In this document: one piece after another, positions 4,942-16,941 of the stretch
Position numbering within the stretch: the first letter of the stretch is position 1
Layout of the letters: each line of letters opens with the position of its first letter
NCBI RefSeq assembly: GCF_004801255.1
Contig: NZ_CP036295.1
Span: 2,628,001-2,692,000 of the forward strand
Reading direction: 5' to 3'
DNA length: 64,000 nucleotides
DNA from: Desulfovibrio desulfuricans
GTDB lineage: Bacteria; Desulfobacterota; Desulfovibrionia; Desulfovibrionales; Desulfovibrionaceae
Notes under the pieces: model-generated
Databases searched by the model: none
Told to the model about the DNA's origin: nothing
Seen by the model: only the letters and a program-made list of their open reading frames with translations
Program-made: the position numbers and the translations under genes

Positions 4942-6765
4942 ATGAGCATCAAGTTCAAAGTTCTGCTCCTCTCCATTATCGGCCCCACGCTGCTGGCAAT
5001 CACCATTTTTTTCAATGCGGTGCAAAACATCTGGACGTCTGAGGAGCAAGCAGTCATCCATTCCGCAAAAGGGATTGTCAGCATGGCTGAGTCAGCCCGC
5101 AACGAAATGGCCATGAAGTTTGACGGAGTGATCAGGCCCTTTGGGGAAATACCTCGCGACAAACTTATTGATGCTGTACCCATCATCACCGCCATAAAAA
5201 TGGCACGGCAAAATGCGGAAAAACTTGGATATAAATTCCGTGTGCCCAAGTTTTCGCCACGCAATCCAGCAAATGAACCCAATGCTTTGGAAAGAACAGC
5301 TCTGGAACAGATAGCGTCCAAGGGTTTGCCAGAGCTTATTGTCCGCCAAAAGGATGCAATACACTATTTTAAACCCATAGTTCTTACTGCTGAATGCATG
5401 TTTTGCCACGGCGACCCCAAGGGAACCACTGACCCCATTGGTGGAACAAAGGAAGGCTGGAAAGCCGGGGAAATACACGGTGCTTTCGAAATTATTTATT
5501 CACTGGATGAAGCAGTTGCCAAAACTAAAGCGGCAGCAGTTTCCGTTGGCATAGCAACCGCTGCCATTCTAGTTTTTATTATTTGCGCTGTCTGGCTTAT
5601 TATGCGCAACAGTCTGGTCGCCCCGCTGGTACGGCTGCAACAATTCGCACGACAGGTTTCAGAAGGCGAGCTCAACACACAGCCCCGCGGCACATTCAAG
5701 GCCGAGTTGCAGGCGCTTGAACAGGCTTTGACCGCCATGGTCGTGCGGCTTAAAGAAAAAATCTCTTTCTCGGAACAAAAAACAGCAGAGGCCAAGGCAG
5801 CAGAGGCTCGGGCGCAGCAACACGCCGACGAAGCTGCGGAAGCTCGTGACGATGCGCTTAAATCACGGGCGCAGGGAATGACCGAAGCGGCAAACATGCT
5901 TGAAGGTGTGATCAGTTCAGTTACCTCGGCGTCGCAGGAAATATCGGCACAGGTTGAGCAGTCCAGTAATTTTGCGGCAAGCCAGGCCAGCAGCATGAAC
6001 GCTGTGGCCGCAGCCATGGAAGAAATGAACTCCTCTATTTCTGCGGTTTCAGATAACGCGGCCCAGGCCTCCGCCTCTTCTGAGATTATCAAGGTAAACG
6101 CCAACAAGGAGCTCAAAGAAGTTAATGTCATGGTGGATGCCATCAAATCAGTGCAAACCATGGCTGATGCGCTTAAATCCGGCATGAGCGAATTGGGGCA
6201 CCAGGCTGAAGATATTGGAAAAATTATGAATGTCATCAACGATATTGCCGACCAGACAAACCTGTTGGCGCTTAATGCCGCTATCGAAGCCGCCAGAGCT
6301 GGCGATGCTGGACGAGGCTTTGCCGTTGTTGCCGACGAGGTGCGCAAACTGGCCGAAAAAACCATGCTGGCGGTTACAGAGGTTGGAAACGCCATCCAAT
6401 CTGTACAGCAAGGCACAAAAAATAATGTCGACAGCGTAGATATGGCTGTTGATGCCATTTCAAAGGTCAACAGCATGGCCGAGGGTACAGGAGAGGCAAT
6501 CAGCCAGATCACCTTGCATGTCAATGAAATGGCTGAACAGATTCAGGCAATCGCCCGTTCGGTGGATGAACAGACGCGGGCGTCGGCAGACATCACAAAG
6601 TCCATTTCCATGGCTGATCAAGACTCTTCTGAAACGTCGGCTGCGCTGCAAGAGATATCCACGGCGCTAATAGATCTTTCACAGCAAAGCCAAATACTTA
6701 CGTCTCTCATTGTCAAGTTGCAAGATGGAGCCAAACATATTACTGCGCAGTTTAACGAGATATAA
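4942..6765 (+). CDS. Methyl-accepting chemotaxis protein with Tll0287-like (DUF3365) heme sensor domain
   Basis: A 607-residue transducer. A first membrane helix (about 7-25) leads into a periplasmic domain of the DUF3365/Tll0287 type, which carries one CxxCH heme c motif, CMFCH at 152-156. A second helix (about 199-221) is followed by a HAMP linker and a long cytoplasmic coiled coil. The conserved signalling tip [20 protein letters not shown] begins near residue 435 and contacts CheA/CheW. There is no C-terminal pentapeptide tether for CheR. Family knowledge suggests redox or gas sensing through the covalent heme; the ligand is not deducible. GGTGAGG precedes the ATG. No che genes are close, so it would feed a remote chemotaxis array. 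Confidence 0.93.
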
Positions 6766-6782
6766 TGATGTTGGCCTAACAT

Positions 6783-6861
6783 CCCCCGAAGAGTCTGCCA
6801 TTGAAACATTAGCGCTCCTATGTAAGGAATATTAACGTTTCAATGGCATACTCTTCGGGGG
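6783..6861. repeat. Long inverted repeat (25-base arms, 24 matching) after the chemoreceptor gene
   Basis: The left arm at 6783-6807 and right arm at 6837-6861 are reverse complements at 24 of 25 positions, starting CCCCCGAAGAG on the left. A 29-base AT-rich loop separates them. The repeat begins 17 bases after the chemoreceptor stop codon and would fold into a very stable hairpin, but no T-run follows the right arm. It could be a terminator without the classic tail, an mRNA-stabilising hairpin or a miniature mobile element. No target-site duplication is visible at the flanks. Confidence 0.8.
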
Positions 6862-6888
6862 GAGGGGCAATATGGGCAGCCTATAAAT

Positions 6889-6915
6889 AAAAAGACCGCC
6901 CATTTCTGAGCGGCC
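6889..6915. terminator. Terminator-like hairpin
   Basis: GACCGC at 6894-6899 and GCGGCC at 6910-6915 form a six-base-pair stem. Read on the minus strand the single imperfect pair becomes a G-U pair and the stem is followed by five T, so it would work better leftward. On the plus strand only TTT follows. No minus-strand gene lies upstream of it, so its client is unclear; it may be a leftover of a rearrangement. Confidence 0.4.
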
Positions 6916-7109
6916 TTTCGAATGAACGCCTTATGAAGATATCGTGGCAGAAATATTCCATTTAAGGTGCTGGCCAAAATCGAACTCTTTTCTTTATTCA
7001 TTAGGATGGCGGCACGAGCTTGACAAGCAAACTCAATTTTAAGAAACGCCTAAATACAAACCTAAAAAGCAAACTTGTCGTGGACGAAAGAATTCGTTAG
7101 TCTATTTCA

Positions 7110-8479
7110 ATGCTAATAAATCCTAGACTAACAGATTTTTACGGCATCCAGTGTGCACAGGAACAAATAGACTTTGCTATCCCTTTCTTTAATGAGGATA
7201 TCCCGCTCTATTTGGATCCTTTTTTGCTCTGGAAGTCTCCGTCTATGCAAGACAATGCTCTCCATGCCTCGCTAATGACTTTTTTTAATGACCTCGGTGC
7301 TAAATTCTTGTCAGGTCAAAAGAACGATGCCATAAATAGTCTTATTATTGCTTCTGAGTGCCATGAAGTAAAAATGGGGACTTCCCTCAGCGGTAAAGGT
7401 AGACGGATGTCCGTAAAGCTTGCTGAAATGATTCTTGGAACATTTCAGATTGCAGAGCGTGCAGGAATACATGGTTTTCGGCACTTAGAAGAGATTCAGC
7501 TACTTATAAATGGTATTTCGAAAGACAGAATTAGTGACATAGCATGTTCATTCATTAAATCATATCTTATTGACTACACCATTGATCAATGTTTAGAGCT
7601 GGGTATTCCTGTTGAAAATACACATGTCGATAATATTTTTCATATGCAAAACCATAAACCTATTTCAGAACAAGTAGCATTACCGATTAATCCAGTGCAC
7701 AAGGAGCCAATAATTTTAGTCCCAAAACGTTATTTGCGCTTTGTTCCTTGGATTAATTTTGATGAGTATTATGCTAAAAGTTGTCCGCAAGATGCGGCGT
7801 CCAGCCGCCGCAGGAACTGTCAAGAGGGGCTGTCTTAAATTTCAATCGGAACAATTACGATGTTATCCAAGAGTATATTACTTTAAAAGAACGTACAGCA
7901 GAAGACTGCAAAAACGATCCTCTCTTTTCTGCGATTCCAGTACTTTCGGCAAAACGACGATTAAAGCAGCTTCTCAATCTGCCAAGCGGAACACAAAATC
8001 TTTCACATCAAAAATATGAAAAGGCTATTGAGTCTTTATTCCCATCGTTGCTTTATCCCTATTTGGACTTTGCAGCAGCGCAAAGTCGAACTGATAGCGG
8101 GACAAGCATCCGTGATTTAATTTTTTACAACACCGCAACTCACCATTTTCTCAAGCAAATCAGCGAAGAATATCACTCACAGCAAATCGTTATGGAACTA
8201 AAAAATGTTCATGAGCTGTCTCGTGAACATGTCGATCAACTCAACCGTTATATGACCGAAGGGCTTGGGCGTTTTGGAATTCTTGTTACGCGGCATGAGC
8301 CGAAAAAGGCAATTCGACAGCGCATTATTGACCTATGGTCTGGACAAAGAAAATGCATTATAGTCCTTTCTGATAGCGATATTGAACAAATGGTGGATGT
8401 CTTTGAAACTAAACAGCGCGAACCAATAGACGTTCTTGTCAAAAAATACGTTGAATTTCAACGTTGTTGCCCATGTTAA
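7110..8479 (+). pseudogene. PD-(D/E)xK nuclease-like protein, split by a -1 frameshift
   Basis: Two overlapping open frames read as one protein of about 455 residues. The first (7110-7838) begins MLINPRLTDFYGIQ and is a helical domain of unknown function ending around KRYLRFVPWINFDEYY. The second (open from 7781, stop at 8479) continues with LNFNRNNYDVIQEYITLKER and ends in a restriction-endonuclease-like core: the D in TSIRDLIFYN followed by IVMELKNV, matching the D...ExK pattern, then helix ENxHVDQLNRY-like and a LVTRHEP strand. The switch must fall between about 7778 and 7822, where a GC-rich hairpin (7793-7812) interrupts an otherwise AT-rich gene. This could be a disabled gene, a sequencing error or programmed frameshifting. 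Composition unlike the neighbours suggests transfer. A nucleic-acid-cutting or defence role is inferred from the fold only. Confidence 0.7.
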
Positions 8480-8483
8480 TACC

Positions 8484-8882
8484 ATGAAAAAAAATGATAT
8501 CATTATATGCGAAAAATCTAGGAAGCAACTTCAAGCTCTATATACTGAGCTTCACCCATATGCGCTAAAAAAACCGCATGACACTGTAACGAAGTTTAAA
8601 TTAAATGTTGTTAATAGCCTTCTGGGAACTATTGATAATTTGATCGGGCAAGAAAATCTTCCCATTGCTGGTTTCACCCTTTTTGATGAAGACAGCATGC
8701 CTAATATTAGCGACATCTCCCTAGTGCTTAATCAATACATTCAGGCTCTTGAGATTTTCAGATCTAGAAATATAGAGCTTGATGATGAAGATGAAAATAT
8801 ATGGATCTACAAAATAGATGATGCCGATAACGATGAAGATTATTTGATCATACAAACCGATCCCCCAACATCATTCAGGTAG
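8484..8882 (+). CDS. Small acidic hypothetical protein, paralogue of the next gene
   Basis: A 132-residue protein starting MKKNDIIICEKSRKQLQALY, with no recognised domain. It is predicted to be helical and has a strongly acidic C-terminus (LDDEDENIWIYKIDDADNDE). The central part aligns with the next gene: LFDEDSMPNISDISLVLNQY here against LLDDDELPQFSDALLILAQY there, followed by ALEIF/ALKSF. The ATG at 8484 lies 4 bases after the nuclease-like gene's stop and has no clear ribosome site, so translation is probably coupled. A TTG start inside the upstream gene is an alternative. Gene order suggests a partner, inhibitor or immunity-like factor for the nuclease-like protein, but this is context only. 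Confidence 0.65.
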   Translation: MKKNDIIICEKSRKQLQALYTELHPYALKKPHDTVTKFKLNVVNSLLGTIDNLIGQENLPIAGFTLFDEDSMPNISDISLVLNQYIQALEIFRSRNIELDDEDENIWIYKIDDADNDEDYLIIQTDPPTSFR

Positions 8883-8886
8883 TGTC

Positions 8887-9231
8887 ATGAATAAGACAAA
8901 CACTCAGTTTACACAAAGAACGGCTTTATACGAATCCGTCAAGGATATATTTGATTCTGTTTTTTCCGAACTACAAGGCATGGCCAAGAAAAAACCGGAT
9001 GGGACTCTTAGTAAAACTAAAATCATCCACTTAAATAGGATTTTGACAGATATAAAGCTTATTTTCGACGGATATCCTGAAGCAAAATATTTGGACTTGC
9101 TTGATGATGACGAGTTGCCCCAGTTTAGTGATGCTTTGTTAATTTTGGCTCAATACAATGGGGCATTAAAAAGTTTCCATAATAAACACTGGAAGTTTAA
9201 TGGAATTGATTGGGATTGGATGAAGAATTGA
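8887..9231 (+). CDS. Small hypothetical protein, paralogue of the preceding gene
   Basis: A 114-residue protein starting MNKTNTQFTQRTALYESVKD, with no recognised domain, signal peptide or membrane segment. It shares an architecture with the protein before it: a helical start, a KKPDGTLSKTKIIHLNRIL segment matching KKPHDTVTKFKLNVVNSLL, and a conserved LLDDDELPQFSDALLILAQY block. The two look like an old tandem duplication that has diverged. The ATG is 4 bases after the previous stop, so the three genes probably form one transcript. AT-rich like the rest of the patch. Function unknown. Confidence 0.65.
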   Translation: MNKTNTQFTQRTALYESVKDIFDSVFSELQGMAKKKPDGTLSKTKIIHLNRILTDIKLIFDGYPEAKYLDLLDDDELPQFSDALLILAQYNGALKSFHNKHWKFNGIDWDWMKN

Positions 9232-9620
9232 TTCATGGCGTACTTATATTGCGAGACCAGAAAAAAAACGCACTTCTAAGCAGGAATTAGCAAAGAGCTT
9301 AGCAAGTGCCCTTAAGTTGAGCTAGTTTCGACTTGCTCTGGCGGTCGCTTCATTTTGATGCTCACGTCCCTACCGCCACGATTGATGGGAGTTCTGCCAT
9401 TCCCACACCAACCCACGCGCCAAACGATCCCATGTCCGCAAGTATTTGTATCGCTGATGCAACTCTTTAACTTGTGGCCATGTGGCGCAATAATTTTCAT
9501 TATATATTGAATTGTTACATGAATTTTCCCAGAAATTCTGCCACACGCCACATTTGGCGACCCCATTCAACGCAGAAAAGGGATAGCCGGGTTTTCACCT
9601 AACTATCCCTTTCGGTTATT
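9232..9620. other. Gene-remnant region at the right edge of the AT-rich patch
   Basis: No intact gene is supported. On the plus strand, 9224-9325 reads as the tail of a basic protein (WRTYIARPEKKRTSKQELAK, then a stop) with no start of its own, which looks like the 3' end of a deleted gene. On the minus strand, 9312-9570 carries two overlapping short frames of plausible protein-like content (for example ATWPQVKELHQRYKYLRTWD), perhaps fragments of one decayed gene split by a frameshift. Neither fragment is recognised. Confidence 0.35.
9577..9612 (-). terminator. Probable terminator of the tRNA-His/tRNA-Pro unit
   Basis: The ten-base arms AAAGGGATAG (9577-9586) and CTATCCCTTT (9603-9612) are perfectly complementary, with a 16-base loop. 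On the minus strand the stem ends in TTTTC directly downstream of the tRNA-Pro 3' end. Confidence 0.6.
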
Positions 9621-9697
9621 TGGTCGGAGCGAAAGGATTCGAACCTTCGACTTCCTGCTCCCAAAGCAGGTGCGCTACCAGGCTGCGCCACGCTCCG
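9621..9697 (-). tRNA. tRNA-Pro (anticodon UGG)
   Basis: Read on the minus strand, the 77-base gene starts CGGAGCGTGGCGCAGCCTGG and ends in an encoded CCA. The anticodon loop TTTGGGA gives anticodon TGG, and the T-loop is TTCGAAT. The acceptor stem CGGAGCG pairs with CGCTCCG. It lies 36 bases downstream of tRNA-His on the same strand. The AT-rich accessory patch begins directly beyond its 3' end. Confidence 0.95.
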
Positions 9698-9733: not shown

Positions 9734-9810
9734 TGGGGCGAAAGATGGGACTTGAACCCACGGCCACCTGGGCCACAACCAGGTGCTCTACCAACTGAGC
9801 TACTTCCGCC
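9734..9810 (-). tRNA. tRNA-His (anticodon GUG)
   Basis: On the minus strand the gene reads GGCGGAAGTAGCTCAGTTGG onward and ends in an encoded CCA. The anticodon loop TTGTGGC gives GTG. Aligning TA at positions 8-9 and the TTCAAGT T-loop shows that the extra G at position -1, characteristic of tRNA-His, is encoded and faces C73. Confidence 0.95.
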
Positions 9811-13652: not shown

Positions 13653-15410
13653 CTAGCCGTTGCGCATCTCAGCAATAAGGGTTGCAAGCTTGCCAGCCTG
13701 AACCGCAAGATCGCTCACTGCCTTGGCGGCCTCGGCCATGGCCTCGGCGGTCTGGCGCGACATGTCGTTTACCTCGATAATTGTATGATTAATTTCTTCG
13801 CTGGCGGCAGACTGCTCTTCACTGGCGGTGGCGATGGCATTGGCCTGATCCGCTGTAACCTCGGCCGTGACCACAATTTCGCTCAGAGCCTGACCCGACA
13901 GACTGGCGCTCTCCGTGGCGGTGTTGACCTGCTCAACGGCGTTATCCATGGATACGCGGCTCTTGGAGGTACTTTCCTGAATAGCTCTGATCACGCGCCC
14001 CACATCAATGGTTGAGGCCATGGTCTTTTCGGCCAGTTTGCGCACCTCGTCGGCAACAACGGCAAAGCCTCGTCCTGCCTCGCCAGCGCGCGCGGCTTCA
14101 ATGGCGGCGTTAAGCGCCAGCAGGTTGGTTTGATCGGCAATGTCCGAGATAACGGTCATGATCTGCGAGACATCCTGCGCGTGGCTGTCGAGCTGCGCCA
14201 TGTCGTCCTTGAGCTCCATTGAAAGCTGATGCACCAGCTGGATGCTCTGCAGCGAGCTGCCCACGATAGTGGCCCCATGCTCGGCTTTTGCCTTGGTTTC
14301 CGCAGAGGCAGAGGAGGCCGCGCCGGCATTTTTAGCAACTTCCTGCACGGTAGCGTTCATTTCGTTCATGGCTGTGGCAGCCTCGCCCAGGCGTTGCGCG
14401 GTTTGCAAAGCGCCCCTGTCGGCCTGCTCTATCTGAGCCGAGAGCTGCGTCGAGGCCGAGCTGACCGCATGGGCGACCTCCTCCAGCTGGGCGGCCGCCG
14501 TCAACATGGCCGACGTTTTTGCCTGAGCATTGTTTTCCGCTTTTTCGGCATTGCGCATGGCTTCGGTGGCCTTGACGGCCTGATCATGGGCCTTGACGGA
14601 TTCGGCCTGAGCTTTTTCCATATTAGCTTTCAACGCTTCCACCATCGAGACTATGGAACCGTAGACGCCAGCCCGGCTGCTGCCGTCGGCGATGTCGTAA
14701 TCGCCGTCCACAACCCGGCGGGCAATGGTGTTCAGCACGCCAGGGTCTTTGCCCAGCTGGCGCATCACGCTGCGCGTCAGCACGTACGTAATCACCACGC
14801 TGATAACAATCGCGACCAGGCTGAGGATAAGGCCGGTATTTTTGGCCATGGCTCCAAGCGTTATGGCCTCTTGCATGTTCTCCTTGCTGCTCGCGGCCGT
14901 CAGATTGACGAGCTCTTCATACACAGGCGCAAGCTTGCGAAACTGCGGACTATAGTTGGCATCAAACAGCGCTGTGGCCTCGTCAAATTTTCCCTCCGCG
15001 ACAAGCTTTGTCGCATTTTTTCTCACTGTGCCCATACTTGCAGAAATTTCATCAATCTGGCGTAAAAGATTTTTTGCCTTGACTGCAGTATCTCTATCAA
15101 ACAGTTCAGTATATTTTAAATACTTACGTTGACCGTCAGCTATCTCTTGCAGTGATTCTTTAATACGTGAGCCATACGTTTCAGCAGCCGACTCATTGCG
15201 TTTAAGCAACATGGTTGTCAAATTTGTCCTGACTTCCCAAAAATTCAAATGCATAGTTCCAACAGCTATAACAGCTGGAATATATGCTTTATCAACATCA
15301 TCAATACTTTCATTCATCCGGGAAGTGCTGAACATTGAAGCTGCAGAAATAGCCACAATAACAATTATCATGCCAGCAAAAGACATGATAAGCTTTGTTG
15401 ATAAACGCAT
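13653..15410 (-). CDS. Methyl-accepting chemotaxis protein with four-helix-bundle sensor
   Basis: A 585-residue transducer with a first membrane helix at about 7-28, a periplasmic helical domain of about 150 residues of the 4HB_MCP type, a second membrane helix near 190-210 and a HAMP-like linker. A long cytoplasmic coiled coil contains the conserved tip [20 protein letters not shown] and the following [18 protein letters not shown]. No CheR-binding pentapeptide is seen. I chose the ATG at 15410 ([11 protein letters not shown]) because GGAG lies 11 bases upstream and the membrane helix follows at once; 13 upstream codons look untranslated. The ligand is unknown. It lies next to the HD-GYP gene on the same strand but 281 bases away. 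Confidence 0.92.
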
Positions 15411-15900
15411 CTTTTGTCTCCGCCATACGTGAATGTTATTTGTCGTCAATCAAAACATGCTAACTTTTCCGCAAAAGCAATCTTTGAGTATTTGCAGATG
15501 CCAATCAGATTGTTGGCGTGCACATCTCAATTCAGCAGCTCCAAAATCCCGCAGACAGTACGTATTGTGCGTACAATTTACGCGCGTTCAATAGTTGCTA
15601 TACTATCCGGCGACATTCATCTGCCATTACTCTATTTTAGTAGGTTACCAGCAAGGATGGGTAAAATATTATTTTTGCATACTGCATGCACTCAGCAAAT
15701 ACTTGAATTTATATTGATTTATTGACAAAAATAAGTTATGCTACCATACAAAAACCATTATGCAATAATATATTGGCACAGTGAAAAAAATCTTTAAAGT
15801 CAAAACAAACACCGAGCAATACCATTTCAAATTAAATGATTACTGTGTCTAAAGATTCCACCAACAGAACAAATTTGCCCTTGATGCATTAGGTACGGCC
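15411..15900. other. AT-rich divergent promoter region
   Basis: This 490-base region separates the chemoreceptor (minus) from a LysR gene (plus). It is markedly AT-rich and has no supported gene. A TTGACA at 15722-15727 with a weak CATACA 17 bases on could serve rightward transcription. LysR-type T-N11-A sites are too degenerate to call in sequence this AT-rich. Confidence 0.35.
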
Positions 15901-16782
15901 ATGGAAATTAAGCATCTTAAAACGTTAATGATGGTTGCATCGACAAGGAGCATCTCAAAGGCATCCAACCAACTGCACCTCTCCCAACCATCGGTAACAA
16001 GAATTATACAAGAAATAGAAAGCATTGTTGGCGTACCGCTATTTTCAAGAACAAAAAACGGTATGGTTCTTACAGGAGCTGGAAAAAATTTTTATACGCA
16101 AGCAACGCGCATTGTTTCAACACTTCACGATGTTGTTGCAGAGTTAAAAGCTCCATATGAAAGCAATATAATAAATATTGGTTTTTGCCCGAGCGTTCTC
16201 ATATTCGATTTCATTGAACAACTACGATACAGCAATTACCGCATGGATTATATCAGGTTTCATGAGCTTTCCGAAAAGCGTCAATTCCTTGCACTGGCAA
16301 ACAAGTACATTGATATTTCGATAGCGAGGAGCCTAAACACTGGCAGCAAGATGGGGTTGGAGCAGATTATTCTGAACAAGGCAGAGCTGTTTGCCGTCAT
16401 CCCTGCATCTCACAGGCTCTCAGGCAAAAAGATGATCAGCCTGGATGAACTTAAAAACGATCCCTTTGTCGCACTGTCCGAAAAATCATTTCCTGCATAC
16501 AGCAACAATATAGTAAAGCTCTGCAAAAAATCCGGATTTACACCCAACATCACTTTTCAGGCAAATGGATATATAGCGGCGCTCGCGACAATTTCCGCTG
16601 GAGCTTGCGTGGGTATTTTTCCAAGAAACATCGTCAATTCAATTGTCCCTGGATACGTATACGTACCTATCCACAGCAATAAAGATTTCTTTGATATATC
16701 GTGCTATATACGAAAAAATGAAACCAGGGTTGAAATTCTTGACCTTGTTGCAAAAGTACAGGAACAGTTTCGTAGCAGATAG
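15901..16782 (+). CDS. LysR-family transcriptional regulator
   Basis: A 293-residue protein with an N-terminal winged helix-turn-helix (residues 1-60: SISKASNQLHLSQPSVTRII) and a periplasmic-binding-like effector domain (about 90-293). The start ATG opens the conserved MEIKHLKTLMMVAST block, so it is secure. The DNA is more AT-rich than its neighbours, with lysine- and isoleucine-rich protein, which suggests recent acquisition. No metabolic gene is adjacent on either strand, so the target cannot be guessed beyond likely autoregulation in the large upstream region. Confidence 0.88.
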   Translation: MEIKHLKTLMMVASTRSISKASNQLHLSQPSVTRIIQEIESIVGVPLFSRTKNGMVLTGAGKNFYTQATRIVSTLHDVVAELKAPYESNIINIGFCPSVLIFDFIEQLRYSNYRMDYIRFHELSEKRQFLALANKYIDISIARSLNTGSKMGLEQIILNKAELFAVIPASHRLSGKKMISLDELKNDPFVALSEKSFPAYSNNIVKLCKKSGFTPNITFQANGYIAALATISAGACVGIFPRNIVNSIVPGYVYVPIHSNKDFFDISCYIRKNETRVEILDLVAKVQEQFRSR

Positions 16783-16860
16783 TTCTATGTATCGGGCGGT
16801 TATGGTCGCTGCAAAAAGCTTTTCCACCAGTTTCCGCGCACAGAGGCCCATGACATGGGC

Positions 16861-16882
16861 AAAAAAACAGCCCCGCCGGGGC
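16861..16882 (-). terminator. Intrinsic terminator after the deoxyribosyltransferase-like gene
   Basis: GCCCC/GGGGC stem (16870-16874 and 16878-16882) followed on the minus strand by TG and seven T. It lies 60 bases beyond the stop codon of the minus-strand gene that ends at 16942. Confidence 0.7.
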
Positions 16883-16941
16883 CTCTGAAAAGGCGCTCCC
16901 GGCAGGGCAATAGACACGACAAAAAAAATGCAACGAGAGGG

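Follow-up and report, generated by a model that had tools for sequence, protein, structure and literature searches.

What is encoded by the AT-rich stretch that adjoins the tRNA-Pro and tRNA-His genes of Desulfovibrio desulfuricans, and to which system does it belong? We addressed this question in a window of 64,000 nucleotides of contig NZ_CP036295.1, in which the unit spans positions 7110 to 9231 (Table 1). The GC content is ~0.38 over positions 7001 to 9000 versus ~0.60 for most of the window, and the low-GC stretch extends slightly past the unit on both sides (~6750 to 9500). The plus strand carries open reading frames (ORFs) at 7110 to 7838 and, in another frame, at 7781 to 8479, followed by two small genes, each preceded by a 4-base spacing. 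An earlier sequence-only reading had described an AT-rich three-gene unit beside tRNA genes, and the base composition, ORF coordinates, 4-base gaps, and tRNA positions all agree with that description. The neighbors of the window copy resemble chemotaxis receptors and murA, and no known defense gene was identified by resemblance next to this copy. A promoter and terminator scan revealed no excess over shuffled sequences.

Table 1. Features of the PDC-M36 locus and of the adjoining tRNA genes (window coordinates)
Feature	Position	Strand	Evidence
M36A N-terminal half	7110..7838	+	PDC-M36A profile 3-234, E 3e-99
Break in M36A	7803..7815	+	DNA alignment gap; profile resumes at 235/236 in other frame
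M36A C-terminal half, PD-(D/E)xK nuclease domain	7820..8479	+	PDC-M36A profile 236-456, E 7e-105; PDDEXK_3 E 8e-5; fold
M36B1, first small helical partner, 132 aa	8484..8882	+	PDC-M36B E 9e-31; first-position clade
M36B2, second small helical partner, 114 aa	8887..9231	+	PDC-M36B E 7e-35; second-position clade
Probable integrated-element end abutting tRNA-Pro 3' end	9402..9620	.	Repeats in G051; synteny limit in genus
tRNA-Pro (TGG), likely integration site	9621..9697	-	
tRNA-His (GTG)	9734..9809	-	

Profile searches revealed that both ORFs of the large protein match one 457-position PADLOC profile, PDC-M36A, and that both small proteins match PDC-M36B. By these matches, the unit is a copy of PDC-M36 (genes A, B1, and B2), a phage-defense candidate of PADLOC-DB 2.0. 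The sequence-only reading had joined the two ORFs into a protein of ~455 residues, which proved real, since both fall on a single profile and since, compared with five intact homologues, the window copy is one base short. Its statement that the unit matched no nameable system did not hold, since a catalogue entry exists. PDC systems are phage-defense candidates obtained by a guilt-by-embedding approach, most of them without validation (PMC12988326; PMC10855318; PMC11811056). The literature searched contained neither a mention of PDC-M36 by name nor a report of its anti-phage activity. The window copy has the protein families, gene order, and co-occurrence of the catalogue entry but differs from it in that M36A is split by the loss of one base. 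In PADLOC the small proteins make up a single family, M36B, represented by two models, whereas our tree separates two old paralogues. The candidate system is known yet uncharacterized, and the unit is a genuine member of it, in broken form.

In Pfam, only PDDEXK_3 scored above its cut-off, on the C-terminal half and by a narrow margin, and the match of NCBIfam GxxExxY to the same domain remained below its cut-off. Both models have the catalytic core of the M36A C-terminal domain in common with it, but the match spans ~40 residues and leaves out the N-terminal domain and the B partners. The Shedu protein SduA is a defense nuclease in which a variable N-terminal part precedes a PD-(D/E)xK domain at the C terminus. 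M36A has a similar organization, but Shedu is a single-gene system, and Pfam and PADLOC profile searches detected no match to DUF4263 or SduA.

The gene order proved strict among homologues. A scan of genome contigs recovered 135 relatives, of which 80 loci were kept, spanning Pseudomonadota, Bacteroidota, Cyanobacteriota, Bacillota, Acidobacteriota, Chloroflexota, Planctomycetota, and other phyla; conservation of the unit as a whole in 80 loci is far beyond chance. Two loci (L036 and L044) were left out of the partner count because their contigs end too early. In all 78 informative loci, A was followed by at least one B gene, and 73 of the 78 had at least two. The remaining five (L062, L063, L066, L078, and L080) had one, indicating that a heteromer is not obligatory everywhere. 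Three of these single-B loci, from Acidobacteriota, have a B1-type gene only, and two, from Bacteroidota, a B2-type gene only. Among 395 genomes of the phylum of the window, the B profile matched in no genome lacking A, and the B family was present in this genome only (1/395), so that PDC-M36 is rare in this phylum.

The two small proteins had been read as diverged relatives of each other, and this relationship was confirmed, since the two PADLOC families matched by one are also matched by the other, and both have invariant residues in common with 83 homologues. In a tree of 85 B proteins, first- and second-position proteins formed two clades with 100/100 support, the sole exception being an Acidobacterial second gene (L055). 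On this topology, B1 and B2 are ancient paralogues that would stem from one old duplication, in a fixed gene order. The B proteins evolve faster than A (mean identities of 0.47 and 0.41 versus 0.58 and 0.61), a difference consistent with exposure to phage proteins but also with simple looseness. Partial mirror-tree correlations, computed on 73 loci, were modest, and the sequence pairs are mutually dependent: B1 gave 0.24 with the N-terminal versus 0.10 with the C-terminal domain of A (same direction in 93% of subsamples), and B2 gave 0.34 with the C-terminal versus 0.16 with the N-terminal domain (98%), values that are no more than suggestive of B1 tracking the N-terminal domain and B2 the C-terminal domain.

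The fold of the large protein was analyzed on an AlphaFold model of the Ruegeria homologue of M36A (mean pLDDT of 89). Residues 297 to 421 display the strand and helix order of PD-(D/E)xK enzymes, with strands at 320-326, 337-342, 360-365, and 390-394 and flanking helices. Residues E305, D337, E364-x-K366, and Q378 are conserved in the family, and the C-terminal half encoded in the window carries residues of the catalytic type (YEK, IRDLIFYN, ELKNV, and QLNRY). The best Foldseek matches were the BspD6I nickase, FokI, MspJI, EcoT38I, and RPB5, with weak E-values (best, 3e-3) and low whole-chain TM-scores. The jaw domain of RPB5 also has a PD-(D/E)xK fold. On the basis of the motifs, the predicted model, and Foldseek, the C-terminal domain of M36A is assigned as a PD-(D/E)xK nuclease domain. 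The sequence-only fold call is thereby backed by the predicted fold, the conserved D/ExK/Q residues, and restriction endonuclease matches, albeit of weak E-value. The N-terminal half is a conserved domain of ~230 residues, which in the window ends at the frameshift and is 55% identical to that of an intact Methylobacterium homologue. Its fold has no known match, neither a sequence-profile search of the PDB nor Foldseek having returned a solved structure. Comparison of the A and B profiles with PDB sequences gave nothing credible. The M36B model consists of three helices and a small sheet (pLDDT of 94) and had no structural match in the PDB or among viral models.

The N-terminal domain extends beyond PDC-M36. 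Besides G167, 8 more genomes of the phylum matched in a search with this domain; conserved throughout the family are a D residue, an E residue, an LGxS...G stretch, and the motifs D..SD and PK. Like M36A, the divergent relatives combine a homologous N-terminal domain with a PD-(D/E)xK-like C-terminal domain, but the latter belongs to other variants (ECKNY type or DFK...EFK type), and M36B is absent from all of them. Several lie in defense loci: after HsdR-HsdM-HsdS in a type I restriction-modification (RM) context (L134), beside a DrmMI-like gene and a helicase in a DISARM-like context (L132), following McrC (L138), and, in a Lamassu-like context, following an ATPase that matches PDC-M68B and LmuB (L137); the labels Hsd, helicase, and McrC come from inspection of the sequences rather than from profiles. 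It is possible, although doubtful, that the N-terminal domain is an unsolved adaptor fold of several defense nucleases (those of PDC-M36 and of the type I RM, DISARM-like, McrC, and Lamassu-like loci) and that B1-B2 is a new two-paralogue control unit, in which each domain of the nuclease is governed by one of the small proteins. A Rhodococcus protein (L006:5404-6504) joins an Mrr-type N-terminal domain to the M36A nuclease domain, with no M36B nearby.

The genomic contexts of the homologues agree with the earlier proposal of a mobile defense or conflict module, since the homologues adjoin restriction and defense genes, lie in prophages, and are carried by plasmids. Their nearest neighbors match models for XhoI, EcoO109I, GmrSD, type I and IIG enzymes, AbiEi, KwaB, PD-T4-6, HEC-05, and DruM. 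Proteins near the unit matched 280 and 258 PADLOC models (133 and 134 proteins, respectively) versus 63 for 119 proteins located more than 6 kb away; this contrast is only a rough sign of enrichment because the models are redundant, the counts being of models and not of independent systems, and some of the distant genes are also defense genes. A scan of viral contigs with the C-terminal half of the window copy alone returned nothing, and a later alignment-based query identified seven viral contigs carrying A. In one of these (L117) the unit is flanked by portal and head-protease genes, and in another (L116) it is beside an integrase; at L119, it is downstream of two DNA methyltransferases. Phage records gave no match to the unit. 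Two distinct plasmids, from Methylobacterium and Leptolyngbya, carry it downstream of umuC, yet umuC and umuD were not matched in any of the 80 genome loci, indicating that this proximity is a coincidence.

Gene identity, nuclease fold class, fixed gene order, paralogy, and mobile and defense-linked contexts are the observations from which we infer that PDC-M36 is probably the nuclease effector of a defense against mobile genetic elements controlled by the B1-B2 pair. In the mechanism that we propose, comprising the defensive role, the complex, its inhibition and release, and the substrate, A would be a two-domain DNase combining the N-terminal domain common to nucleases of other defense contexts with the C-terminal PD-(D/E)xK nuclease. 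B1 and B2, encoded directly downstream, would most likely be a pair bound to A, with B1 contacting the N-terminal domain and B2 the nuclease domain, and would either block the activity of A or determine what it targets. On entry of a phage or plasmid, one of its products would shift the A-B1-B2 complex, and A would then cut DNA, either the invader's or the cell's own. PDC-M36 is thus far catalogued but uncharacterized, and the survey establishes it as a strict A-B1-B2 unit across many phyla, its A protein being tied to a wider set of defense nucleases through an N-terminal domain with no solved relative. The placement of B1 on the N-terminal domain and of B2 on the nuclease is a testable prediction, and intact homologues exist.

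The obligatory presence of small partners in the M36 subfamily, their absence from the B-less relatives, and the tight operon could also be accounted for by abortive infection of the toxin-antitoxin style, in which the DNase A would poison its own cell and the B proteins would be antitoxins that disappear or are degraded upon infection; addiction would agree with a nuclease that depends on partners and is carried by plasmids and prophages. We consider this unlikely, since two distinct B proteins have been kept since an ancient duplication, a pair that a single antitoxin does not require, the toxin gene would come first, hosts tolerate B-less relatives of A, and the Pfam search detected no antitoxin family. 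Modification- or sequence-dependent restriction, with the N-terminal domain reading a DNA mark, the C-terminal domain cutting, and the B proteins acting as structural subunits, is in our estimation unlikely too. It would explain why the Foldseek neighbors are restriction enzymes, including the modification-dependent MspJI, why relatives of A occur in type I RM, DISARM-like, and McrC loci, and why the Rhodococcus relative joins the C-terminal domain to an Mrr-type domain, but no methyltransferase consistently adjoins the unit, and the N-terminal domain matches no solved DNA-reading domain.

The preferred reading, a nuclease effector controlled by B1-B2, applies to the family rather than to the window copy, which matters little because it is broken. 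DNA alignment with the five intact homologues revealed a single-column gap at ~7814, placing the missing base in the linker between the two M36A domains. The break lies within a 7-bp GC-rich inverted repeat (TGCGGCG-TCCAGC-CGCCGCA, read from the sequence), a structure that might have promoted a true deletion or an error in sequencing. Among 40 loci, the window copy is the most diverged in the N-terminal domain, B1, and B2, as expected of a decaying locus, and the second most diverged in the C-terminal domain. Because the reading frame of A is interrupted, we filed the unit as a broken, not a working, member of PDC-M36. Barring a sequencing error at that base, or halves that can function separately, the split of M36A by one-base loss probably renders the copy inactive. 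That the copy works as separate N- and C-terminal proteins, or through frameshifting, appears quite unlikely to us. The ORFs do overlap by 58 bases, the break is at the domain border, and both halves keep the family residues and similar constraint, but no homologue in this survey is split likewise, the second ORF would start with TTG, and the copy is the most diverged of the 40 in three of its parts. Programmed frameshifting was rejected, since no slippery heptamer precedes the break and no notable fold was detected (z = -1.4).

Synteny within the genus ends at 9577 to 9621, the 3' end of tRNA-Pro. In genome G051, the contig that carries the stretch 9402 to 9665, with the tRNA 3' end, has two further copies of it at distances of ~40 and 60 kb, a pattern that the ends of elements should produce at a tRNA attachment site. 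On these sequence grounds, an integrated element probably ends next to tRNA-Pro, which is its likely integration site. A second att copy was not found in the genome of the window, so that the left border of the element is not fixed. Plasmids, prophages, and a tRNA hot spot as locations could also suit a module that serves the maintenance or competition of mobile elements and has no role in defense, an improbable alternative given the restriction-gene neighborhoods in chromosomes of many phyla and the relatives embedded in defense loci. The tRNA-Pro gene resembles an integration hot spot in the genus, G051 and G021 each having partial tRNA-Pro copies that recur on one contig. Upstream of the unit, a terminator-like stretch (6883 to 6927) is common to the window and G013. 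The window contains a second AT-rich stretch, at 15001 to 16900 (GC content of ~0.38 to 0.44), with an ORF resembling a LysR-type regulator at 15901 to 16782.
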